Positions 28 through 34,490 of a DNA stretch of 34,490 nucleotides are shown piece after piece (position 1 is the first letter of the stretch; every line of letters starts with the position of its first letter). The stretch is from Caldisericota bacterium (GTDB taxonomy: Bacteria; Caldisericota; Caldisericia; Caldisericales; Caldisericaceae). The stretch lies in NCBI GenBank assembly GCA_034717215.1, contig JAYELD010000093.1, positions 1 to 34,490 of the forward strand. Direction: 5' to 3'. The notes under the pieces are model-generated. The model did no database searches. It was not told where the DNA came from and saw only the letters and a list, made by a program, of their open reading frames with translations. The translations under genes were made by a program, and so were the position numbers.

Positions 28-1365
28 TTAAATCTCCGGAAGATTTTTTATTGCTCTTTCTATCTCCTCTTCAGGATATTCGTAATCATGCAGCTCTCCA
101 TTAAAATATGCATCGTATGCTGCAAGATCAAAGTGTCCGTGCCCGGAGAAATTAAATACAATTACATCATTTTTTGTTGCCTTTTTTGCTTCTTCAGCCA
201 CTGCTTTTATTGCATGATTTGTCTCAGGCGCAGGGAGGATCCCTTCTGTTCTTGCAAAGAGAACGCCTACTCCAAAAACTTCCCTTTGATAGTAAGCCTG
301 CGCTTCAAGCAAGTTTAATTTTTTTAAGAGACTCAAGATAGGCGAATCTCCATGATACCTCAACCCCCCGGCATGAATAGTAGGAGGAACAAATGAACTA
401 CCAAGCGTAAACATTTTAAAAAGAGGGGTAACCTTACCAGTATCACCGTAATCATACCTGTACTTTCCTTTAGTAAATGTAGGACAAGCTTTTGGTTCAA
501 CTGCAATAAAACGAATATTTTCTCCATTAAGTTTCCTTGGAAGAAATGGCAACATAAATCCACCAAAGTTACTTCCACCGCCAACACACCCAATCAAAAT
601 CGTAGGTTTTACATCTGCCTTGTTAAGTTGCTTCTCCGTTTCAAGCCCTATAATAGTCTGGTGAAGTAAAACATGGTTTGCTACACTTCCCATTGCGTAT
701 TTTACATCACTATGAGTTGCTGCATCCTCAACTGCTTCAGATATTGCAATCCCCAAGCTGCCAGAAGTTCCAGGGAACTCTTCTCGCATTTTTCTCCCAA
801 TCTGCGTCATATCCGTTGGGGATGAGTAACACTTTCCACCCCAGGTTTCCATTAGAGACTTCCTGTATGGTTTCTGTTCATAGCTTACCTTTACCATATA
901 AACTTTAACTTCAACTCCAAGCTGAGCTCCGGCAAATGAAAGCGCCGACCCCCACTGTCCCGCACCTGTTTCAGTAACAAGTTTTTTTATACCTTCTCTC
1001 TTGTTGTAGTATGCCTGTGCAAGTGCAGTATTTGGTTTATGGGACCCTGGAGGCGAAACAGACTCATTTTTGTAAAATATCTTTGCCTTTGTACCAATTG
1101 CCTTTTCAAAATTTTCAGCACGTACAAGAGGAGTTGGACGCCACATTGCATAAGCTTCCAATAACTCTTTCGGAATGTCAATAAAGTGCTTATCAGACAT
1201 TTCCTGTTTCACACACTCCTTTGAAAAAACCCGCTCAAGTTGTTCTGGCCTTACTGGCTGTTTCGTCTCAGGGTCGATGGGCGGTGGTAGAGGCTCAGGA
1301 AGGTCAGGTAATGCATTGTACCACCTTTTTGGCAGTTCATTTTCATTCAATAATACTTTCTTCAT
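28..1365 (-). CDS. trpB2: TrpB2-type tryptophan synthase beta chain (PLP-dependent)
   Basis: 445 aa, the length and N-terminal style of the TrpB2 branch of tryptophan synthase beta, which joins indole and serine to make tryptophan in the cytoplasm. Visible motifs: the PLP-lysine segment GSHKPNTA (K110), ETGAGQWGS at 132-140, and the phosphate-binding glycine loop GGGSN at 262-266. A GGAGG site lies six bases before the ATG. No trpA or other trp gene is adjacent, so it is an orphan copy; TrpB2 enzymes are often found this way and may salvage free indole or work with a distant TrpA. The 200-nt leader upstream encodes a Trp-rich peptide and an attenuator, which supports a real role in tryptophan supply. 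The 27 bases between its stop and the window edge hold no recognisable feature. Family assignment is confident; TrpB2 versus TrpB1 rests on the extended N-terminus and motif wording. Confidence 0.93.
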
Positions 1366-1402
1366 TTCTTTCCTCCTTATCTAAATTTTTAAAACAGAAA
1401 AT

Positions 1403-1430
1403 AAAAAAGGCCTCGTTTCCGAGGCCTTTT
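1403..1430 (-). terminator. Attenuator terminator (regions 3:4) ahead of trpB2
   Basis: On the minus strand AAAAGGCCTCG (1430-1420), a GAAA tetraloop, CGAGGCC and a run of six T form a textbook intrinsic terminator 38 nt before the trpB2 ATG. It sits inside the leader transcript, after the leader-peptide stop, so it is an attenuator rather than the end of another gene. A second, competing pairing for its 5' arm exists upstream (see the attenuator entry). Confidence 0.88.
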
Positions 1431-1505
1431 AAACAAATTATAGTTATGTTACGTGCGGGCTAAGCAGTATCCAAATAAACCCCGGAAGATTTTATGTCTT
1501 CGAGG
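1419..1505 (-). promoter_or_regulatory. Ribosome-mediated trp attenuator (regions 1-2-3)
   Basis: Read by eye on the minus strand. Region 1 (CCTCGAAGA, 1505-1497) pairs with region 2 (TCTT at 1489-1486 plus CGGGG at 1484-1480, one bulged C), loop of seven. Region 2 (CCGGGGTTT, 1485-1477) can instead pair with region 3 (AGGCCTCGG, 1427-1419) through nine pairs, three of them G-U; this blocks the 3:4 terminator. Region 1 starts within two codons of the last Trp codon, so a ribosome stalled for lack of charged tRNA-Trp would cover it, release region 2 and allow 2:3 antitermination. This is the layout of the enterobacterial trp attenuator. The pairing is seen; regulation is inferred. Confidence 0.75.
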
Positions 1506-1561
1506 CACCACCACATCCAACTAAAAAAATTCTTAGAACTGCTTACCTTTATTTTTTCCAT
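1460..1561 (-). CDS. trpL: Tryptophan leader peptide, 33 aa
   Basis: Short ORF too small for most gene finders. ATG at 1561, TAG at 1460-1462; the peptide begins MEKIK and carries W15-M16-W17-W18, three Trp codons in four, then CLEDIK and ends YLDTA. Such Trp clustering is very unlikely by chance in a low-GC intergenic region and is the hallmark of attenuator leader peptides. It lies between a good promoter and the attenuator terminator of trpB2. No Shine-Dalgarno sequence precedes the ATG, and the predicted transcript start falls within three bases of it, so it may be translated from a leaderless mRNA. An 8-bp perfect pairing (TAAGCAGT 1545-1538 with ACTGCTTA 1468-1461) encloses the whole attenuator core. 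The peptide itself probably has no function beyond sensing Trp-tRNA. Confidence 0.8.
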   Translation of the reverse strand: MEKIKVSSSKNFFSWMWWCLEDIKSSGVYLDTA

Positions 1562-1570
1562 TTGATGAAC

Positions 1571-1598
1571 ATTTTAATAAGAAAAATTCGTTTGTCAA
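1571..1598 (-). promoter_or_regulatory. Promoter of trpL-trpB2
   Basis: Minus strand -35 TTGACA (1598-1593, perfect) and -10 TAAAAT (1576-1571, five of six), spacer 16. Seven bases beyond the -10 is about 1564-1562, immediately before the leader-peptide ATG. Confidence 0.75.
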
Positions 1599-24055: not shown

Positions 24056-25402
24056 CTATTTACCTATACAAAAACGCGAAAAAATTGTATCAAGAATTTC
24101 CATTGAAACTTCTTCTCCAGTGAGTATTCCAAGCAAAATAATTGCTTCTTTTAGTTCTTCCGAAACAAGTTCGTTTCTGCCTGAGATTACAAGCTCTTTT
24201 GCCTTTTTAAGATGCTTGACTGCATCCTTTAAACAGTTCTTTTCTCTCTCTGTTGTGATAAGGGAAGTCTCTATCTCTTTGGGAAGGATTTTATCATAGA
24301 TTATCTGTTCAAGAACCTTAATGCCTTTCTTTTTAAGCGCAGAAATTTGAATAATATCTTCATTATTAAATAAACTTTTTAGCTCTTTTATTGTAAGTCT
24401 CGCAGGAAGATCTGTTTTATTTAATACAATAATACGATCCTTTCCGTCTGTAAGTTTGGCAAATTTTTTGTCTTCTGCCGTAAGCATTTCACTTGCATCA
24501 AACATAAAAAGTATAATATCTCCCCGTTGAATTGCTTTTACGCTTCTTTCTTTCCCTAAAACTTCAATAACCTCTTTGGTTTCTCTTACTCCTGCCGTAT
24601 CGATAAATCGAACAGGAATACCAAAAAAATCTATCATCTCTTCTACCGTATCCCTTGTTGTCCCCGGAATTTCACTAACAATGGCTCTATCGAATTTTAA
24701 AAGAGCATTAAGCAGTGTAGATTTCCCAACATTTGTCCTTCCTGCAATCACAACCTTTGTCCCTTCTTCAATTCTTTTTCCTGTTTTGTATGTTGAAAGA
24801 AGCGATTTGATGAGATTAAGAACATCGGTAATCTGCTTATCAAGTTGGCCAGTACTTAGTGTCTCTACATCAAATGGAAAATCTATTGCTCCCTCTATGG
24901 CTGAGATAGTATAAAGTAACCTCTTTTTTATCTCGAATATCTTATCGCTTATTCCACCAAAAAGTCTGCCTGATGCAACCTTTAACGCCTTCTCTGTTTT
25001 TGCTTCAATCAATTCAATTACTGCTTCAGCTTCAATAAGATCTAGCTTGTCATTAAGAAAAGCACGCTTTGTAAATTCTCCTCTTTCCGCAAGACGTGCA
25101 CCAAGTCGAATGAGGATTTTAACCACTAACTCAAGATTCTTTACTCCGCCATGCATCTGAATTTCCAAAACATCCTCTCCCGTATAGGAATGTGGGGATT
25201 TAAAGTAAATGGCAATACCTGTATCGATACGCTCTTTCGTAATTGGATTAAAAATATACCCATTATAAACTGTTCTGGGGCTTTTAATAGTTGTAGAAAA
25301 AACTTTCTGCCCTATAAAAAAAGTGGTGGGACCTGAAAGCCTCACCACTCCTATCCCGCCCAAACCTTTTGGCGTAGAAATTGCTACAATTGTATCATTC
25401 AC
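24056..25402 (-). CDS. mnmE: tRNA modification GTPase MnmE
   Basis: 448 aa, typical length. It acts with MnmG to modify U34 of tRNAs (cmnm5U). N-terminal folate-binding domain (DTIVAISTPKGLGGIGVVRLSG), then G domain with G1 GRTNVGKST at 221-229, the GTTRD switch (PGTTRDTVEE), DTAG, and NKTD; the C-terminus ends with the conserved CIGK (Cys445). The start overlaps the khpB stop by four bases (ATGA-type). Last gene of the rpmH operon. Confidence 0.97.
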   Translation of the reverse strand: MNDTIVAISTPKGLGGIGVVRLSGPTTFFIGQKVFSTTIKSPRTVYNGYIFNPITKERIDTGIAIYFKSPHSYTGEDVLEIQMHGGVKNLELVVKILIRLGARLAERGEFTKRAFLNDKLDLIEAEAVIELIEAKTEKALKVASGRLFGGISDKIFEIKKRLLYTISAIEGAIDFPFDVETLSTGQLDKQITDVLNLIKSLLSTYKTGKRIEEGTKVVIAGRTNVGKSTLLNALLKFDRAIVSEIPGTTRDTVEEMIDFFGIPVRFIDTAGVRETKEVIEVLGKERSVKAIQRGDIILFMFDASEMLTAEDKKFAKLTDGKDRIIVLNKTDLPARLTIKELKSLFNNEDIIQISALKKKGIKVLEQIIYDKILPKEIETSLITTEREKNCLKDAVKHLKKAKELVISGRNELVSEELKEAIILLGILTGEEVSMEILDTIFSRFCIGK

Positions 25403-25848
25403 TTTTTTAAATCAACTACAACATGCCTTCTTGGCTCTTTCCCCTCACTATGTGTCCAAATATTAGGATAGTTATGCAGAGCCATATGAATAGTTTTTCT
25501 AGCAGAGGCAGACATCGGTTTAAGAGAAACAGGCTCCTTTAATCTCTTTGCACGTAGTGCTGCATTTAAGGCAACAGTCTTAAGCATTTCTATTTGTCTC
25601 GACTTGTACCCATTAATATCTAACATAACCATTGGAAAATTTCTATCCTCTTTGTGTGCATATATATTCAATATATACTGAAGGGAACGCAGAACAATCC
25701 CTTCTTTCCCTATAAAGAGTCCTGGATTAGAAAGTCCTTCTATGTTAACATAGAAGTTTCCATATTTTTTTTCTATAACAACGGACGGATTTTCCTCTGC
25801 CGCCTTAAAAAAACTTTCAAGAAAATTGTTTATTTCTCGTTCTTCCAT
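25399..25848 (-). CDS. khpB: KhpB/Jag RNA-binding protein, short form
   Basis: 149 aa from the ATG at 25848, one base after the yidC stop; longer in-frame starts lie within yidC. KH-II domain with the RNA-binding loop GLFIGKEG at about 45-52, then an R3H domain (SASARKTIHMALHNYPNIWTHSEGKEPRRHVVV). It lacks the N-terminal Jag_N domain present in most Gram-positive Jag proteins, so it is about 60 residues shorter. KhpB binds RNA with KhpA and its gene commonly follows yidC. Assignment is firm from the two domains and context. Confidence 0.9.
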   Translation of the reverse strand: MEEREINNFLESFFKAAEENPSVVIEKKYGNFYVNIEGLSNPGLFIGKEGIVLRSLQYILNIYAHKEDRNFPMVMLDINGYKSRQIEMLKTVALNAALRAKRLKEPVSLKPMSASARKTIHMALHNYPNIWTHSEGKEPRRHVVVDLKK

Positions 25849-25849
25849 A

Positions 25850-26974
25850 TTATTTTTCTTCTTTGCCTTTTTTAGGAATTTCCTGTGTTGCTCGTGCAAG
25901 ATGCTTTAAAATATATAGTTGTTCTCCCGCCTGAACAAATGAGAATGTAATCCAGTAGAGAAGCAGTGATGGAGACCACTTAATCGACCATACTGCAAAA
26001 ATAACCGGCAAGAAATACATCATCATTTTCATGTTCTGGTCTTGCACCTGTCCTGGCATTTGTGAAGTTTTGCTCTGAACAAACATAGAAACAAGAACAA
26101 GTACTGACATAATGTAATATGTATCAGGAGTATTTAAATTACTAAGCCAGAGGAAACGCTCAAGGTTAAACGGTGCATAATTAGTAAGCGAACCAAATAA
26201 AACAAGAAGCAGCGGCCACTGCACAAGTAGCGGTAGACACCCTCCAAACATACTCACATTATGCTCTTTATAGAGTTTCATTGTTTCTTGGTTTGCTTTT
26301 TGAGGGTCACCTTTATACTTCTTTTGAATCTTTTTAATTTCAGGCTGGAGTTTTGTCATTCCTGCAGTAGATTTAAATTGTTTTTTTGTTAACGGGTGTG
26401 TAAGAAGCTTAAGCAACAACGTAACAAGAATAATAGCAAGTCCGTAATTATAAGTAAACTTGTGTAAAAATTCAATAGTGTCTCTCATAGCCTTATAAAA
26501 TTTATTCGGAGCAACAAGACCGATGATCCCATTCTTTGTGATTGTTTGTAATAATGCGCCGTTATTATCCTTATAACTCACCTGGACTGTCACAGGGTAT
26601 GCTCTCGCATCAATATAATCGTAAGAAGTAATTGTAAATGTAGCTGTTACCGCTTTCCCAGATTCAATAATAGCAGTGTTGGCTATTTCTTTTACATCGA
26701 CTTCTCTTGTCCCCTTCCATAATTCAAAGGGTGATAGGTCAGAACGGTTGTCAATTGAAATAAGTTTTACTTTCACATCAGAAATAAAATCAGTTGTATT
26801 GTTCGTAATACGGACTGAAAGAGGAATATTTTCCATAGGCCTTCCTCTCCCTGCAATTTGTACAATCACACCAGATTCAGTCACATCCGGAAAACTTACT
26901 CCACCAGCACATCCTGTAATAAAAATTGAAAACATAAGCATTCCAATTAAAATTAAAAATACTTTCTTTTTCAT
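25850..26974 (-). CDS. yidC: Membrane insertase YidC, lipoprotein with Ig-like external domain
   Basis: 374 aa. Signal peptide with lipobox ITGC (Cys22). Residues about 30-150 form a beta-rich external domain (ENIPLSVRITNNTTDFISDVKVKLISI; VTATFTITSYDY) that looks like a CARDB/Ig-like fold, not the proteobacterial P1 domain. The conserved insertase core follows from about 170: five membrane segments, LLLKLLTHPLTKKQ (Lys where most have Arg in the first core segment), KLQPEIKKIQKKYKGDPQKANQETMKLYKEH, and GGCLPLLVQWPLLLVLF. It inserts proteins into the membrane with or without Sec. Its stop is one base from the khpB ATG. Confidence 0.93.
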   Translation of the reverse strand: MKKKVFLILIGMLMFSIFITGCAGGVSFPDVTESGVIVQIAGRGRPMENIPLSVRITNNTTDFISDVKVKLISIDNRSDLSPFELWKGTREVDVKEIANTAIIESGKAVTATFTITSYDYIDARAYPVTVQVSYKDNNGALLQTITKNGIIGLVAPNKFYKAMRDTIEFLHKFTYNYGLAIILVTLLLKLLTHPLTKKQFKSTAGMTKLQPEIKKIQKKYKGDPQKANQETMKLYKEHNVSMFGGCLPLLVQWPLLLVLFGSLTNYAPFNLERFLWLSNLNTPDTYYIMSVLVLVSMFVQSKTSQMPGQVQDQNMKMMMYFLPVIFAVWSIKWSPSLLLYWITFSFVQAGEQLYILKHLARATQEIPKKGKEEK

Positions 26975-26983
26975 GTATCCTCC

Positions 26984-27193
26984 TTATGGGACAGGGTCGT
27001 TTCCTCCAGGGAAAAAAGGATTACATCGCAAAACTCTTTTTACTGCAAGCCATCCACCCCTCTTTACCCCATATTTTTCAACTGCTTGAACTGCATAATC
27101 AGAGCAAGTCGGGATAAAACGGCATGTCGGTGGTTTTAACGGTGAAATATAACGTCTATAAAATTTAAGAGCGAAGAGTAAAAAAGTTTTCAT
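26984..27193 (-). CDS. yidD: Membrane protein insertion efficiency factor YidD
   Basis: 69 aa, standard length. [32 protein letters not shown] and RCNPFFPGG are the family hallmarks, with the two Cys before the SDYA motif. Overlaps rnpA by ATGA and precedes yidC by nine bases. Peripheral membrane protein assisting YidC-dependent insertion. Confidence 0.95.
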
Positions 27194-27513
27194 TCCTTAC
27201 ACTCCTTTCTTAAAATCCCTGACAAATCTATTAAAACATCCTGCATTTTAACAGTTGTTATACTTTTCTTTGCAACAATGACATAACTTCTATCCTTCAA
27301 TAGTTTATCCTCAATTTTTAAAAACGATTCTCTCATTAATCGTTTCGCTCTATTCCGCTCTACAGCATTCCCTACTTTTTTAGATGTAATAAATCCAACT
27401 TTCCCTTGTGTTCGATTCGAAACAAACACAACAACAAAATGCCCAAAGTATTTCTTTGAGTTTTCCAGTACATCTTTAAAGTCTTTCCCTTTAAGCCTTT
27501 CCCACAATTTCAA
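27190..27513 (-). CDS. rnpA: Ribonuclease P protein component
   Basis: 107 aa. Basic, with the RNR signature [12 protein letters not shown] at about 53-64 and the [13 protein letters not shown] strand. It binds RNase P RNA for tRNA 5' maturation. The only in-frame start near the expected N-terminus is a TTG two bases after the rpmH stop, with no clear ribosome binding site, so translation is probably coupled to rpmH. Confidence 0.95.
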
Positions 27514-27514
27514 T

Positions 27515-27649
27515 CTATACTGAAAGCTTTATCCTGCTTTTTGTTCTTCTTCTGTTTAAAATTCTTCTGCCGCCAGGCGATTTCATCCTTTTCCTGAATC
27601 CCAAATGTCTGGCACGTTTCTTATTATGCGGTTTATAATTTATCCTCAT
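27515..27649 (-). CDS. rpmH: Ribosomal protein bL34
   Basis: 44 aa, too short for most ORF lists. The peptide begins MRINYKPHNKKRARHLGF, contains FRKRMKSPGGRRILNRRR and ends RIKLSV, the classic L34 pattern of a highly basic large-subunit protein. AAGGAGG lies five bases before the ATG at 27649. First gene of the rpmH-rnpA-yidD-yidC-khpB-mnmE operon. Confidence 0.97.
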   Translation of the reverse strand: MRINYKPHNKKRARHLGFRKRMKSPGGRRILNRRRTKSRIKLSV

Positions 27650-27676
27650 AAAAACCTCCTTAAAATTTCACATCTT

Positions 27677-27704
27677 ACTATATCAAAACTTTAATAATAG
27701 TCAA
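27677..27704 (-). promoter_or_regulatory. Promoter of the rpmH operon
   Basis: Minus strand -35 TTGACT (27704-27699), 16-nt spacer, -10 TATAGT (27682-27677), giving a start near 27670 and a short leader with AAGGAGG. Confidence 0.75.
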
Positions 27705-27720
27705 CCATTTTTTCTCCAGT

Positions 27721-28278
27721 TTAGTCCTTCATCTTGCAAACAGGGCAAAGTGGGCCCTCGCCTTTAAACAAAGTACCACATTTCTTGCACATCTTATACC
27801 CTAACTGTCCTTTTAACCTCTCATTTTTTTTATAAAAGGTAAGTAGTTCAACATATTTCTCTTTAAGCTCTTTCTCGACCTTTAACCTATCCGCTACAGA
27901 TTTTACCCAATCAATGTCGCTTTGTGTAAGTTTTATATCCTGATAAGAAAGATATTCATCTTCTTTGGTTCTTTCCCTTACCTTCTTTTGTATTTGTGAT
28001 ACTAATTTAAATTTAATATTTTTGATTGGTGAATCTGGGATACTTTCGTTAATTTTCTTTAGTATATCCGTTTTCATGAATGTAAGTTCTCGCATAAATA
28101 ATGGGCTTATCACTCCTATAAAAATTGTATTTTCTTTATAAAAAATAGGCGTTGTATAGTTGGAAAGTTTTTCACCAACAATCTCGCCCCACTTTAAAAG
28201 CGCAAGATTTCCTTTAATTTTGACATAAATTTGCTTTTTTTGAAGAACGCTGTCTAAAATATATTTAAGAGTATTCAT
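27721..28278 (-). CDS. DUF721 (DciA-like) protein with C-terminal zinc ribbon
   Basis: 185 aa. The N-terminal ~95 residues match DUF721: WGEIVGEKLSNYTTPIFYKENTIFIGVISPLFMRELTFMK, a KH-like fold shared by DciA, the ancestral loader of the replicative helicase. The middle is charged and helical, and the C-terminus adds a four-Cys zinc ribbon (C164, C167, C178, C181; CKKCGTLF...LCPVC). ATGA overlap with recF and position after dnaA-dnaN-recF agree with a role in replication initiation. The zinc ribbon is not part of classical DciA and could bind DNA or protein. Confidence 0.82.
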   Translation of the reverse strand: MNTLKYILDSVLQKKQIYVKIKGNLALLKWGEIVGEKLSNYTTPIFYKENTIFIGVISPLFMRELTFMKTDILKKINESIPDSPIKNIKFKLVSQIQKKVRERTKEDEYLSYQDIKLTQSDIDWVKSVADRLKVEKELKEKYVELLTFYKKNERLKGQLGYKMCKKCGTLFKGEGPLCPVCKMKD

Positions 28279-29312
28279 AATGAAATAATCTTTGCTTTAT
28301 CGAGTACGGCCTCAGGAATAATATTTAAATTCAGGGTTGTTAAAAATATTTGTCCATCTTCTGTCATTCTTAAAACATTGTCGCGGCGTGTTTCATCAAG
28401 ATCAGAAAAAAAATCATCCATTAAAAGTATTGGTTCTTCCCCTCTTTTCTCTTTAATAGATTCCTTTTCTACAAAGCGCATTGCAAAGGCTATACTATAT
28501 GCCTCGCCTAAAGAACTAAACTCTCTTGCCTGGATGCCATCCATTAAAATTTCTAATTCATCAAGGTGCGGCCCAAAAAGTGTTCGTTTCCTTTGTATTT
28601 CGGTATTTTCCATCCCATTCTTTAATAACTTTTCTGTTGGAGATGGGTTATAAATAAACTCTATTTTTACATTTTTATTAGAAATTTTATAAAAGTTTTT
28701 TTGTACAATATCATTAAGTGAGGAAACAACTTCTTTTCTCTTCTGCTGTATTACTCGTCCTACCGGAATAATCTTATTGGATAAAATAGACAAGAGTTCT
28801 CTAGATATAGCCGTACTTTTAAGTACGGCGTTTCTTTGGTATAAAAGAGTATAATAATTCGATAATTCGGAATAATATGTGGAATCCGTAAAAATTAACC
28901 AGTGGTTTAAAAAATTTCTCCTTTTTTTAGGACCGCCTTTTATAATATCCACTACTTTATAATTTAGAAAAATAACTGGAAGCATTCCTATAATTTCAAA
29001 AAATCCTTTTGCTTTTTTATAGTTTAACTGTATTTCTTTTTTTCCATTTCCAATTAAAATATCGATATTTTTTTCCCTTAAGCTATCCTGAAAAATAAGG
29101 GAGATAAAAAAATACTGTTTATTAAAACTCACACAATTTAACAGATGGCTAGTAATAAAGGATTTCCCTGAAGATGCTAAATATATCGACTCAAGTATTG
29201 TTGTTTTCCCAGTACTGTTTTTCCCAGTAATAATATTAAAAAGGGGAGAAAAATTAAACTCGCTTTTTTCAAAAGACCTAAAATTCTCAATATGAAGAGA
29301 ACTAATTTCCAT
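28275..29312 (-). CDS. recF: DNA repair ATPase RecF
   Basis: 345 aa SMC-like ABC ATPase loading RecA at gaps with RecO/RecR. LHIENFRSFEKSEFNFSPLFNIITGKNSTGKTTILESIY carries Walker A (30-38); the signature lies in EFSSLGEAYSIAFAMRF near 265 and Walker B in ILLMDDFFSDLD near 300. Some positions differ from the usual (GKNSTGKT instead of GxNGxGKT; SLGEA instead of SQGQ), but order, length and context are typical. TAATG overlap with dnaN and ATGA overlap with the DUF721 gene. Confidence 0.94.
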   Translation of the reverse strand: MEISSLHIENFRSFEKSEFNFSPLFNIITGKNSTGKTTILESIYLASSGKSFITSHLLNCVSFNKQYFFISLIFQDSLREKNIDILIGNGKKEIQLNYKKAKGFFEIIGMLPVIFLNYKVVDIIKGGPKKRRNFLNHWLIFTDSTYYSELSNYYTLLYQRNAVLKSTAISRELLSILSNKIIPVGRVIQQKRKEVVSSLNDIVQKNFYKISNKNVKIEFIYNPSPTEKLLKNGMENTEIQRKRTLFGPHLDELEILMDGIQAREFSSLGEAYSIAFAMRFVEKESIKEKRGEEPILLMDDFFSDLDETRRDNVLRMTEDGQIFLTTLNLNIIPEAVLDKAKIISL

Positions 29313-30427
29313 TAAATTGTTGTAGTCTTCTTTTGCGGCATAATAATATAAAGATATAAATCATCACTTTTACCCTTAATTTTAATGGGATGTAAGGGAC
29401 TGTTCATTTCAAACACTACTATATCATCATTTATGTGGGTTATGCCGTTAATTAGTTTTTCTCCATGAAGTATTATAGAAAGTTCTGCGGTTCCCTCAAA
29501 TTTGACACTCTCTTTTCCCTCACTTATTTCTGGTAGCACAGCCTCTATATTTAGATTGCCTGCTGAAAATGTTAAAACTATTTTCTTTGTGCTACTTCTT
29601 GCAAGTACTTCTACTCTATCTAAAGCAGGTAAGAGTTCATCTTTACGCACTTCTGCGTAAAATTCATCTTCTCTGGGAATAATAGCTTCATAGGGAGGGA
29701 ATGAGCCGTTTATAAGTAAGGATATAATATTAATATTGGGTGTATTAAAAGAAATTTGGTTTTTATTAGATATAATATCAATAATTTCTTCTTTTATTTC
29801 AACTTTATTTAAAATATCCAACGCTTTCCATGGGATAATAAATAATTCCTCTTGAACCCCCTCAACTGGAAAGTTACTAAATGCAAGACATGTACTATCT
29901 GTAGCTACAAATCTAAGATTATTATCTTTAGAATCAAATAGTATTCCCTTGAACTCCTTTCTGCTTTCTTCTCTTTTAGATGCAGCAAATATTGTATTTT
30001 CAGTAAGTTTTTTTAGTATTTTCATAGGAATAGTTATCTTTATTTTTTCCTCTATTTCTGGAAGAAGAGCAAACGCATTTGCGTTAAAACAATTAAATTT
30101 ATACTCTGACGTTCTCTGTTTTATTACACCCTTATCACTACTAACTAAAATTTCTGTCTGTTCTTCATTATTAAACTTTGAAATTATTTCTCTTAGTAAA
30201 GCAAATGGTAATACTGTTTCTTTGGGTTCGTCAGGTTCAATTTCTACATTTCCCTTAACCGTATTTTTAATTCCCTGCTCAAGGTTTGTAGTAATAAAAG
30301 TAATATTGTTACCATTAATGCGTATCAGTACGTTACTTAGAATAGGGTCTATTGATTTGGGAGAAATTACTTTTCCCACATTGTTTAAGGCTGTCAAAAA
30401 TTCCTTATTTAGTAGTTTTATTTTCAT
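29312..30427 (-). CDS. dnaN: DNA polymerase III beta sliding clamp
   Basis: 371 aa from ATG at 30427, eight bases after AAGGAG; a GTG at 30436 is inside that spacing. Three-domain clamp: N-terminal MKIKLLNKEFLTALNNVGKVI, VLPFALLREIISKF at the first domain end, AFSNFPVE...IIPWKALDILNK in domain 2, and a C-terminal YLYIIMPQ close to the usual MPMR ending of the protein-binding pocket. The ring tethers Pol III to DNA. TAATG overlap with recF. Confidence 0.95.
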   Translation of the reverse strand: MKIKLLNKEFLTALNNVGKVISPKSIDPILSNVLIRINGNNITFITTNLEQGIKNTVKGNVEIEPDEPKETVLPFALLREIISKFNNEEQTEILVSSDKGVIKQRTSEYKFNCFNANAFALLPEIEEKIKITIPMKILKKLTENTIFAASKREESRKEFKGILFDSKDNNLRFVATDSTCLAFSNFPVEGVQEELFIIPWKALDILNKVEIKEEIIDIISNKNQISFNTPNINIISLLINGSFPPYEAIIPREDEFYAEVRKDELLPALDRVEVLARSSTKKIVLTFSAGNLNIEAVLPEISEGKESVKFEGTAELSIILHGEKLINGITHINDDIVVFEMNSPLHPIKIKGKSDDLYLYIIMPQKKTTTI

Positions 30428-30428
30428 C

Positions 30429-30648
30429 TTATCCACTCCTTTATTTTTATTATTTTACTCTTTAATATTTAAAATATAATAATAGTAATAATAATGTGCT
30501 GCATTATGTGTAAATGTTTATTCTATATAGGTTTTTATTAAAAAATGCTGTTTATATGTTTGTTGGTAAGTTTTAATCTTTTCAACACTATCAACAGGAT
30601 AAAACTTATCCACAAAAAAAATTATCTTTTCTACATAGTTTTCCACAG
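30429..30648. other. dnaA-dnaN intergenic region, candidate oriC
   Basis: 220 nt, very AT-rich. One perfect DnaA box TTATCCACA at 30606-30614, flanked three bases away by an inverted near-box (ACAGGATAA, 30594-30602), plus TTTTCCACA at 30639-30647 (one mismatch) and TTATCCACT at 30429-30437 (one mismatch, over the dnaN ribosome binding site). An AT stretch at about 30450-30500, ending in triplet runs (AATAATAGTAATAATAATG), could be the unwinding element. The spacer upstream of dnaA lacks a perfect box. Box clustering is seen; origin activity is inferred. Confidence 0.5.
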
Positions 30649-31959
30649 TTAATTCCCAGTTTTAATTTTTTTTGTAATATCTTCTATTAATGCTTTCATC
30701 GTCTCTTGTTTTTCAGCTTCTTTTCCTATCTTAGCGCAAGCATGCATTACTGTAGTATGGTCTCTTCCACCAAAGGAACTTCCAATCAACGGTAAAGAGG
30801 AATCTGTAAGTTGTCTTGCAAGGTACATTGCAATTTGTCTTGGTATTACAATATCCTGTGATCTTTTTCTTTCATCTAATGCGGCTCCAGGGGTATTGAA
30901 ATATTCCGAAACAACTTTTTTAATCCTCTTTATTGTAATAGGTTCGTTGTTAGTCTGAATTACGCTTGATAATATTTTTGTTGCAAACGAAAGAGTAATT
31001 TCTTCATTTGTCAACGATGCAGATGCAACTAACCTGACTAATGCTCCCTCTAATTCACGGATATTGGAAAAGATGTTCTTTGCTGTATAAAAAAGAACGT
31101 CATCGGGCACGCTAATATTTTCTAGCTCTGCTTTCTTTTTTAAGATTGCCACCCTTGTTTCAAAGTCTGGAGGCTGTATATCGGCTACAAGACCCCATTC
31201 AAAACGGGTTAAAAGCCTTTCCTGGAGGGTTGCTATTTCTTTTGGAAGACAATCGGATGTAATCACGACCTGTTTGCCTGCATCGTGTAATGAATTAAAT
31301 GTATGAAAAAATTCTTCTTGTGTGCGTTCTTTACCTGCAAGGAATTGAATATCATCAATAAGCAATACGTCTACAGAACGGTACTGTTTGTGAAAACGGT
31401 CTATCAGCTGGCTGTTGCTACGCGCATTTTGGATAGCATAAATTACTTCGTTTGTAAATTTTTCTGTGGTAGTATAAATGATTTTCAAGTCACTAAAGTT
31501 TTTTAATAAGTAATGAGAAATTGCCTGCAAAAGGTGTGTTTTCCCCAGACCTACTCCTCCATATATATATAAAGGGTTATATGCTGTACCCGGGTTTTTG
31601 GCTACAGCCGTAGAGGCTGCATAAGCGAGCTTGTTCCCACCTCCAACAACAAAGTTTTCAAAAGAGTAGCGCTTTTTTAGAGTCAAGTTATTAATAACGA
31701 TTTTCTGCGGAGGCTCTTCCCCCCTTTTTCCCACAACAATTTCTACTTTTACATCTTTATTTTTTAACCCCGAAAGGGTACTTTCGATGAGAGATTTGTA
31801 TTTTGTTTCCAGCCATTCTTTTACAAACTCCGATGGAGCATTTAGTGTAACTGTGTTAGCTGTTTCTTTTTCAAGTTCAACTTTGCGAAACCATGTTTCA
31901 AATGTTGGCACACTAAGATGTTCTTTTAATTCGTTTAATGCTTTTTTCCATATATTCAT
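30649..31959 (-). CDS. dnaA: Chromosomal replication initiator DnaA
   Basis: 436 aa. Domain I at the N-terminus (IWKKALNELKEHLSVPTFETWFRKVEL), a short linker near 75-95, AAA+ domain III with Walker A GGVGLGKT at 134-141, Walker B LLIDDIQF at 199-206 and the FNSLHDAGKQ sensor region, and domain IV with the DnaA-box-binding signature GRDHTTVMHACAKI near 405. Length is normal for a short-domain-II DnaA. It has a GGATGGGG site before the ATG. First gene of dnaA-dnaN-recF-DUF721 with a 212-nt gap to dnaN containing DnaA boxes. Confidence 0.98.
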   Translation of the reverse strand: MNIWKKALNELKEHLSVPTFETWFRKVELEKETANTVTLNAPSEFVKEWLETKYKSLIESTLSGLKNKDVKVEIVVGKRGEEPPQKIVINNLTLKKRYSFENFVVGGGNKLAYAASTAVAKNPGTAYNPLYIYGGVGLGKTHLLQAISHYLLKNFSDLKIIYTTTEKFTNEVIYAIQNARSNSQLIDRFHKQYRSVDVLLIDDIQFLAGKERTQEEFFHTFNSLHDAGKQVVITSDCLPKEIATLQERLLTRFEWGLVADIQPPDFETRVAILKKKAELENISVPDDVLFYTAKNIFSNIRELEGALVRLVASASLTNEEITLSFATKILSSVIQTNNEPITIKRIKKVVSEYFNTPGAALDERKRSQDIVIPRQIAMYLARQLTDSSLPLIGSSFGGRDHTTVMHACAKIGKEAEKQETMKALIEDITKKIKTGN

Positions 31960-32208: not shown

Positions 32209-34490
32209 TTACGGTTTTGGGTAGGTTATTTTTATTTCTCTTCTAACTCCTTCCCATTCTACAAGGCAACCAAGATTTTCTGTAACAAATCGGATTGGGA
32301 GCATTGTTCTATCATTTATAATGATTGGTTTCACATTGTGATTATCGTTATCTATCCATTCCCCCGTTCCATTGACTTTTGCCTTTGGATTATCTATCCA
32401 TAGTTCAATTATTGTACTTTTAAAATTTATTGTAACTTTTCTTGCTGTTCCATCCCAGCTGATCGCTCCCCCTAAACCTTCAACAATTGCTCTAATCGGG
32501 ACAACTGTTCTTGACCATTCTGTAATAATAACGGGCTTTGTACCTCTACCCGGGTCTATTTCCTGTTCCACTTCATTTATATACATATTAGGATTATCAA
32601 TGTACAAGCGTATTATTATCTGTTCTATTTTAGGTGGAGTTGTAGCAGAAACTTCATTAGAATAGTCAGAGAACCCCAGAGAGCTATATGCCCTTACCCT
32701 GTAATAATAAGTTGTGTTGGGTAGAAGGAATATATTGTCGTAGGAAGTAATGTCAGTCCCAACGGTTGCAAGAACAGAATATGTCCCACCAGCTTCTTTT
32801 CTTTCTATCTTAAACCCATCTTCATTATCACTGTTATCTGTCCAGGTTAATGATATTTCACTGCTGCTTTCAGCTGTTGCTGAAAGCCCGATTGGAGCAG
32901 AAGGAACGGTTCCACATACGGGAGTTGTAATAGTAGTTTCATTTGAATAAGCCGAGTCACCAATACTATTTGTTGCTTTTACTCTATAATAGTATGTCGT
33001 TTCGGCAGATACAGATGTGTCTGAATAAGATTCAGTATCAGGAGCAAGTGAAGTTTCAATTGCCGAATACGTTCCACCGGCTTCTTTTCTCTCTATAATA
33101 TAATTTTCTTCATTGTCAGCGTTGTCAGTCCAGTTTAGTGAGATTTCGTTACAGGAAGCTGCTGCCAGTAAAAGTGAAGTTGGTGCGGCTGGTGCTGTAC
33201 CCGCTGCGGGTGTTGTAGCATGTGCTTCATCAGAATAGACAGAATCTCCGATTGTGTTGTATGCTCTTATTCTATAGTAGTATGTCGTTTCAGGAGAGAC
33301 TGTTGTATCAGAATATGTCGTTGCATCTGCCAAAGCCGTATCAATCTCGGCAAATGTCCCACCAGCTTCTTTTCTTTCTATCTTAAACCCATCTTCATTA
33401 TCACTGTTATCTGTCCAGGTTAATGATATTTCACTGCTGCTTTCAGCTGTTGCTGAAAGCCCGATTGGAGCAGAAGGAACGGTTCCACATACGGGAGTTG
33501 TAATAGTAGTTTCATTTGAATAAGCCGAGTCACCAATACTATTTGTTGCTTTTACTCTATAATAGTATGTCGTTTCGGCAGATACAGATGTGTCTGAATA
33601 AGATTCAGTATCAGGAGCAAGTGAAGTTTCAATTGCCGAATACGTTCCACCGGCTTCTTTTCTCTCTATAATATAATTTTCTTCATTGTCAGCGTTGTCA
33701 GTCCAGTTTAGTGAGATTTCGTTACAGGAAGCTGCTGCCAGTAAAAGTGAAGTTGGTGCGGCTGGTGCTGTACCCGCTGCGGGTGTTGTAGTATTTGTAA
33801 CATTAGATGATGTTGATTCATTGGAACCATTCCTTACCTTAATTAAGAACCAGTACTGTGTCTCGGGAGAAAGACTCGAAACGGTTAAATTAGATGCAGT
33901 TGCGGTAAATGCTCCTATACCGGAGAAAGATGAGCCATCTGTACTTTCACTTGCCACAATTTGTACTGCGTTTGAATCGACCGGATGGTCCCAATCAAGC
34001 CTTATAGAAGTTGAAGAAAGTGCTGTTGCGGTAAGCCCTGTTGGTGGTGCAAGAGCATATGCGATTTTTGTTACACCTGATGTGGAAACCCCGCTTGCAT
34101 TATAAGCCATTACCTTGTATGTATGTGCTCTGTAATCCGGTACTGTAATTGACGTGCTGAGTGTGTTGTTATTGGTTATTGTTTTAACGACTGTCCAGAG
34201 TAAGAACATACCTGTGCTTTTCTCATAAATTTTATATCCGGCGCATTGTTTGGTATGATTCCACGTCATGTAAACGGTTTTTCCGATAGCATTAGCCGTG
34301 AAACTTGTTGGTGGGGCAGAATAAGTAAGCAATGTAGCAGAGGAAGATCCTAGTGAATAATCATCGTAAGTACTGTCATCTCTCCTTGCTCGCACCCAGT
34401 AGACATATGTTGTATTTGGTTGCGCCGTTGTATCAACCCAAGAAGTTTTAGTCCAGGGTACTGTTGCTATAGGGGTTAGCGCAAAACCTC
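32209..34490 (-). CDS. Fibronectin type III repeat protein with C-terminal stalk domains, 5' end outside window
   Basis: Partial: the frame is open to the right edge, with 759 residues visible; an internal GTG at 34395 is inside an Fn3 module (the peptide before it reads TTYVYWV) and is not a start. Six complete Fn3 modules and part of a seventh are visible (PPTGLTATALSSTSIRLDWD; TTYYYRVKATNSIGDSAYSN and variants). The last ~140 residues hold two copper-amine-oxidase-N-like stalk repeats (VVPIRAIVEGLGGAISWDG; MLPIRFVTENLGCLVEWEG). Such proteins are exported and surface-attached; the export signal would lie beyond the edge. Two modules are duplicated with 438 bp of identical DNA. Likely role in adhesion, S-layer association or extracellular polymer binding; no catalytic domain is visible. 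Confidence 0.85.
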   Translation of the reverse strand, partial: GFALTPIATVPWTKTSWVDTTAQPNTTYVYWVRARRDDSTYDDYSLGSSSATLLTYSAPPTSFTANAIGKTVYMTWNHTKQCAGYKIYEKSTGMFLLWTVVKTITNNNTLSTSITVPDYRAHTYKVMAYNASGVSTSGVTKIAYALAPPTGLTATALSSTSIRLDWDHPVDSNAVQIVASESTDGSSFSGIGAFTATASNLTVSSLSPETQYWFLIKVRNGSNESTSSNVTNTTTPAAGTAPAAPTSLLLAAASCNEISLNWTDNADNEENYIIERKEAGGTYSAIETSLAPDTESYSDTSVSAETTYYYRVKATNSIGDSAYSNETTITTPVCGTVPSAPIGLSATAESSSEISLTWTDNSDNEDGFKIERKEAGGTFAEIDTALADATTYSDTTVSPETTYYYRIRAYNTIGDSVYSDEAHATTPAAGTAPAAPTSLLLAAASCNEISLNWTDNADNEENYIIERKEAGGTYSAIETSLAPDTESYSDTSVSAETTYYYRVKATNSIGDSAYSNETTITTPVCGTVPSAPIGLSATAESSSEISLTWTDNSDNEDGFKIERKEAGGTYSVLATVGTDITSYDNIFLLPNTTYYYRVRAYSSLGFSDYSNEVSATTPPKIEQIIIRLYIDNPNMYINEVEQEIDPGRGTKPVIITEWSRTVVPIRAIVEGLGGAISWDGTARKVTINFKSTIIELWIDNPKAKVNGTGEWIDNDNHNVKPIIINDRTMLPIRFVTENLGCLVEWEGVRREIKITYPKP
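32781..33218. repeat. 438-bp identical direct repeat, copy 1 (with 33354-33791)
   Basis: Compared base by base, 32781-33218 and 33354-33791 are identical with an offset of 573 bp (191 codons, two Fn3 modules). The modules between and beyond differ. Confidence 0.92.
33354..33791. repeat. 438-bp identical direct repeat, copy 2
   Basis: Second copy of the in-frame Fn3 duplication. Identity at synonymous positions implies recent duplication or gene conversion. Confidence 0.92.

Follow-up and report, generated by a model that had tools for sequence, protein, structure and literature searches.

The window analysed here, meaning the whole 34,490-nt stretch of DNA from Caldisericota bacterium (GCA_034717215.1, contig JAYELD010000093.1, positions 1-34,490 of the forward strand), has a GC content of 37% and belongs to a genome estimated to be 96% complete, in a family (Caldisericaceae) represented by 18 genomes within a phylum set of 54. 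Near its left edge, on the minus strand, lies trpB2, whose product scores above cut-off against both TIGR01415 (643 bits, cut-off 519) and NF009057 (700 bits), has solved TrpB chains (6hul, 4qys, 6hte) as structural relatives and finds its closest relatives in Caldisericota MAGs (91, 84, 81, and 78% identity). A promoter, a leader open reading frame (ORF), a terminator and then the trpB2 ATG follow one another within 1600-1366 of the minus strand, as listed here:

1571..1598, minus: predicted sigma-70-type promoter, TTGACA-16-TAAAAT, 11/12 consensus matches; the -10 box ends 9 nt upstream of the leader ATG
1460..1561, minus: predicted leaderless ORF for a 33-aa leader peptide; all 8 species retain its ATG, reading frame, WxWW motif and a stop past region 2
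1508..1519, minus: putative regulatory codons UGG AUG UGG UGG (W15 M16 W17 W18); WxWW invariant in 8 species (x = M, S, Y, A)
1497..1506, minus: region 1, starting 1 nt past the last Trp codon (from sequence)
1477..1489, minus: region 2, within the ORF, partner of region 1 or 3 (pairing counts and shuffles)
1417..1430, minus: region 3, partner of region 2 (antiterminator) or 4 (terminator); 2:3 with 97% of cells paired
1403..1415, minus: region 4 and U run, 3:4 being the predicted intrinsic terminator (terminator scan; 96% of cells paired)
1372..1378, minus: Shine-Dalgarno AAGGAGG of trpB2 (from sequence)
1457..1548, minus: accessory long-range stem, 1548-1532 with 1475-1457 over the leader stop codon, enclosing the Trp codons and 1:2
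28..1365, minus: trpB2, TrpB-like PLP enzyme, the putatively regulated gene (TIGR01415, NF009057)

Elsewhere in the window, genes read from the sequence as dnaA, dnaN, recF, rnpA, yidC, jag-like and mnmE (24056-31959) form an origin-region set, which would put some 30 kb between trpB2 and the likely origin of replication; a large protein of fibronectin-type-III-like character, whose internal repeats are nearly identical (32209-34488), extends past the window edge.

The leader ORF (1561-1460, minus strand) translates as MEKIKVSSSKNFFSWMWWCLEDIKSSGVYLDTA followed by a stop, and this 33-aa peptide with W15-M16-W17-W18, as well as the 1:2 pairing (1505-1497 with 1489-1480) and the terminator 3:4 (1430-1403), was located just where a first-pass annotation of this DNA had placed it. 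Region 1 (CCUCGAAGA, 1505-1497), which the same annotation had put close behind the last Trp codon, starts 1 nt after the W18 codon and pairs with UCUUCCGGGG (1489-1480) in region 2. The core of 2:3 (CCGGGGUUU, 1485-1477, with AGGCCUCGG, 1427-1419) also lies in the position first given, but the full duplex is longer, at 11 pairs (UUCCGGGGUUU with AAGGCCUCGGAA), because it includes part of the terminator loop. The terminator hairpin itself (1430-1405, U run to 1403) stands 37 nt upstream of the trpB2 ATG, has a calculated strength of -18 kcal/mol and was the one site found by a terminator scan, vs. 0.3 expected; the folding stability of the leader as a whole is not unusual (z -1.7). No Rfam family, Trp_leader included, scored above its gathering threshold in the window, and no T-box match (RF00230) was found there; sub-threshold matches to STnc40 and Phe_leader reflect the terminator hairpin only and were set aside.

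Two features absent from the first-pass annotation concern the start of this ORF and its extent. Since the -10 box ends only 7–10 nt before the ATG in the eight leaders compared and in a congener that lacks the gene (nine leaders in total), the transcript 5' end is expected about 0–4 nt from the ATG and the leader ORF is, from the predicted promoter position, predicted to be leaderless. The same layout occurs in none of the 24 other ORFs of the window, most of which have a Shine-Dalgarno sequence. Furthermore, regions 1 and 2 both lie within the leader ORF in all species compared.

Conservation of the leader in Caldisericaceae

A trpB2 gene is present in 7 of the 18 family genomes, and a leader with WxWW precedes it in all seven as well as in one further contig (L005, labelled Thermotogae, with a TrpB2 protein 83% identical), i.e., in 8/8 cases. 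The motif reads WMWW in five of these leaders and WSWW, WYWW and WAWWW in the others, and the residues outside it are mostly variable. In all eight, region 1 sits immediately behind the Trp codons, a position that suits masking by a ribosome stalled there.

Base pairing was counted in hand-cut blocks of regions 1-4 from these eight sequences, and, given that the sequences share ancestry and that the structure guided the cutting of the blocks, the resulting counts are to be read as supports rather than probabilities: 97% of cells are paired for 2:3, 96% for 3:4 and 90% for 1:2. Four pairs of 3:4 changed on both sides (covariation score reached by 0/500 shuffles), as did two pairs of 2:3 (UA to CG and GC to AU; score equalled by 3/500 shuffles). 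For all three pairings, shifting the partners by 1–3 columns caused a sharp drop in pairing. Compared with dinucleotide shuffles of its own spacer, the 2:3 duplex gave p values of 0.002–0.012 in seven of the eight species and 0.06 in the eighth; the corresponding range for 1:2 was 0.003–0.7, with weak results in L002 and L006. Thus, the covariation anticipated by the first-pass annotation was borne out by both-sided changes in 2:3 and 3:4 and did not rise above shuffles in 1:2; its other concern, homologous leaders devoid of Trp codons or covariation, was answered by the retention of WxWW and the pairings in all eight Caldisericaceae leaders. The accessory stem (codons 5-10 with the stop-codon region) beats shuffles in five of the eight species and is absent in the other three, and was accordingly rejected as a general part of the leader.

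A covariance model based on these eight sequences matched the seven trpB2 genomes and one additional genome, G020, with E values of 1e-10 or better, and nothing comparable was found among the 54 genomes; weak matches elsewhere in the phylum (L110, L111, L113) proved to be ordinary terminators without Trp codons. G020 (L105:1371-1700), an 80% complete genome of the same genus, carries an intact leader, and trpB2 was not found in it. Its sequence departs just past the AAGG of the Shine-Dalgarno, and its U run, TTTTAAATTTT, is interrupted. Judging by this one sequence, it is apparently an orphaned attenuator, a leader left behind after the loss of trpB2.

The missing trp pathway and control of trpB2 in other lineages

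The description of this trpB2 as an orphan in the first-pass annotation held up well. No trpA above cut-off was detected in any of the 54 phylum genomes, and neither trpC (IGPS) nor a TrpE-type chorismate-binding enzyme in any of the 18 family genomes, while all 14 control genomes were positive. TrpB enzymes convert indole and serine to tryptophan; in combination with this chemistry, the absence of trpA, trpC and a TrpE-type gene from the family makes indole salvage the likely role of TrpB2, which is probably an indole-salvage enzyme. Matches to PF01212 were not accepted as an indole source: they include a 347-aa protein of threonine-aldolase rather than tryptophanase size, the others in the family being many weak PLP-fold matches. 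The role of orphan TrpB2 is a matter of dispute, a serine deaminase activity having been proposed and found to be poor, with no other role identified (PMC1854888).

Across lineages, orthologous trpB2 genes are preceded by three Trp-responsive arrangements: a Trp-codon leader ORF, a T-box or a trpR gene. With a criterion of three W in six residues applied outside the family, Trp-codon leaders were found in 26 of 28 Syntrophia-class cases (shuffles predicting 0.1) and in 10 of 21 cases in a Bacteroidota order (0 expected), as well as at KSB1, Calditrichota, and Neomarinimicrobiota loci. Most of the Syntrophia-class leaders look leaderless as well, and they share with the window leader a W-rich ORF, a TTGACA promoter, an ATG shortly past the -10 box and the orthologous gene; they differ in their short peptides with WWW/WWWW near the end, in RNA sequence and in having two terminator-like hairpins. 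This RNA (L011, L012, L017, L029, L042, L059, L081, L154-L183) is conserved, with a GGTGTGAGACCG/CGGTTTCACACC pairing and the two hairpins in tandem, and the representatives tested had no Rfam match. The Prolixibacteraceae leaders (L022, L023, L024, L030, L032, L034, L036) show a conserved YGKEWxWRNVKME with synonymous third-base changes, a pattern of peptide-level constraint that makes them candidate sensors acting through the nascent chain and not simply by counting Trp codons.

Upstream of trpB2 in a second Caldisericota family (L087, L088, L089) lies a T-box whose specifier position reads UGG; it would sense tRNA-Trp ahead of the same gene but, unlike the window leader, by direct binding of the tRNA and with no leader peptide. 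A trpR gene, confirmed by Pfam, is located 29–61 nt upstream of trpB2 in Calditrichota, Spirochaetes, Chitinispirillia, and others (L037, L038, L043, L047, L052, L056, L058, L061, L069, L071, L076). A separate observation comes from another Caldisericota family (L091:1-1500), where a trpB1-type gene without trpA follows a leader reading ...HTFCWWWTELH with a strong 2:3 as part of a strong antiterminator/terminator pair.

Folding states and the proposed switch

The first-pass annotation had proposed to fold the leader masked and free. When the stretch that a ribosome stalled at the last Trp codon would cover is masked in RNA made up to region 4, 2:3 is the minimum-energy fold in all eight species. 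For the window leader at transcript lengths of 148–150, the calculated P(2:3) is 1.0 in the stalled state vs. 0.44 falling to 0.01 in the free state, in which P(1:2) rises from 0.55 to 0.96. The same calculation applied to the E. coli K-12 trp leader as a positive control gave P(2:3) of 0.7 stalled vs. 0.3 falling to 0.1 free. With region 4 fully made, every state of the window leader favors 3:4 at equilibrium, and hence the switch must be kinetic; 3:4 also prevails at the end of the E. coli calculation.

Taken together, these sequence features make it highly probable that the leader is a ribosome-mediated transcription attenuator, which senses charged tRNA-Trp and controls a single gene, trpB2. 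In the mechanism that we infer, transcription would begin 0–4 nt upstream of the leader ATG, and the leaderless ORF would thus be loaded by a ribosome at once. Under a shortage of Trp-tRNA, this ribosome would stall on WxWW and cover region 1, 2:3 would pair before the synthesis of region 4 and RNA polymerase would continue into trpB2. With ample Trp-tRNA, the ribosome would pass through region 2, and 1:2 would refold behind it or region 2 would remain occupied, in either case precluding 2:3, which would likewise fail to form if the ORF were untranslated; without 2:3, the 3:4 terminator would form and transcription would end. The ample-Trp state is harder to read here than in E. coli, as the stop codon lies past region 2 and a ribosome terminating there would leave all but the end of this region uncovered. 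The product of the gene would then make tryptophan from serine and indole, the latter having to be supplied externally.

The 1:2/2:3/3:4 geometry would equally suit a ligand-gated switch, and the extra long-range stem in five of the eight species could be taken in the same sense. That a riboswitch binding Trp or indole, or else an RNA-binding protein resembling TRAP, flips 2:3/3:4 next to an incidental short ORF is nevertheless quite unlikely, given that the ORF has retained its start, frame, stop and WxWW despite variation at most other residues, that the promoter-ATG spacing is constant at 7–10 nt, that no Rfam family matches and that a Trp-codon ORF is the sole common feature of otherwise unrelated leaders of orthologous genes.

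It is very improbable that the hairpin does no more than terminate transcription constitutively or give rise to a small RNA, with trpB2 read through at a fixed rate: a terminator of that sort would have no use for 2:3, whereas every relative retains this pairing next to Trp codons, with compensatory changes. This holds in spite of the strength of the terminator (-18 kcal/mol) and of a precedent in S. meliloti, where the leader RNA produced by attenuation, and the peptide as well, are capable of acting in trans (PMC7298713). Finally, the peptide itself might function as a small protein, or act as an arrest peptide in response to free Trp or indole, as its length, beyond that of a minimal leader, and the peptide-level conservation of a Bacteroidota trpB2 leader may suggest; the poor conservation of Caldisericaceae residues outside WxWW, with those past the motif constrained by RNA pairing, renders this exceedingly improbable. 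The ribosome-mediated attenuator thus remains the preferred reading.

Relation to known attenuators and implications

The window leader is most probably a known type of device with unusual details, in a little-studied phylum. It shares with E. coli trpL-trpE the Trp-codon leader ORF, the three pairings and the behavior in state calculations. The E. coli leader differs in preceding a full biosynthetic operon, in its 14-aa peptide with tandem WW and in having region 2 past the stop codon, as compared with a single orphan gene, a 33-aa ORF predicted to be leaderless and a region 2 inside this ORF. A leaderless leader ORF, only predicted in the window, is also a feature of the Sinorhizobium meliloti trpLE(G) attenuator, where the 5' end of the rnTrpL transcript coincides with the ORF ATG (PMC7298713); that attenuator controls trpE(G) and is of unrelated sequence and phylum. 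Attenuation has been predicted for Corynebacterium and Streptomyces trp operons, including C. diphtheriae trpB2A (PMC1262725), and clues of leader-peptide attenuation upstream of amino acid operons were described in Flavobacterium (PMC9723704). The C. diphtheriae case is alike in that the predicted attenuator lies upstream of a gene called trpB2, and unlike in being actinobacterial, with trpA in the operon and other trp genes in the genome. The C. diphtheriae trpB2 may fall outside the TIGR01415 family.

The first-pass annotation had considered attenuation of a lone trpB2 unexpected in a low-GC lineage more usually under TRAP or T-box control. This surprise was partly misplaced: the host is a member of Caldisericota and not a Firmicute, TRAP or T-box control would not be expected there by default, C. 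diphtheriae trpB2A provides a precedent (PMC1262725) and Trp-codon trpB2 leaders are common in other phyla. In the literature searched, which covered few subscription papers, we found no description of trpB2 leaders in Caldisericota or deltaproteobacteria and no report of ribosome-mediated trp attenuation in Caldisericota.

On grounds that we regard as evenly balanced, Trp-codon attenuators on orphan trpB2, often leaderless, may represent a widespread way of controlling indole salvage that has evolved repeatedly, apart from the classical trp operons, in Caldisericota, Bacteroidota, the Syntrophia class and other groups, and in which a T-box or TrpR can take the place of the attenuator on the same gene. 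The occurrence of three unrelated Trp-responsive devices across lineages, together with a family that has no other Trp route, speaks for indole salvage and opens this role to testing.

Overall, the leader described here would extend ribosome-mediated trp attenuation to Caldisericota, in a form whose leader ORF is predicted to be leaderless. As read from the DNA, a tryptophan-codon-rich leader would decide on making the lone enzyme that turns indole into tryptophan, in organisms with no other tryptophan route. If true, a widespread Trp-responsive control of trpB2 would fix the disputed role of TrpB2 as tryptophan supply.
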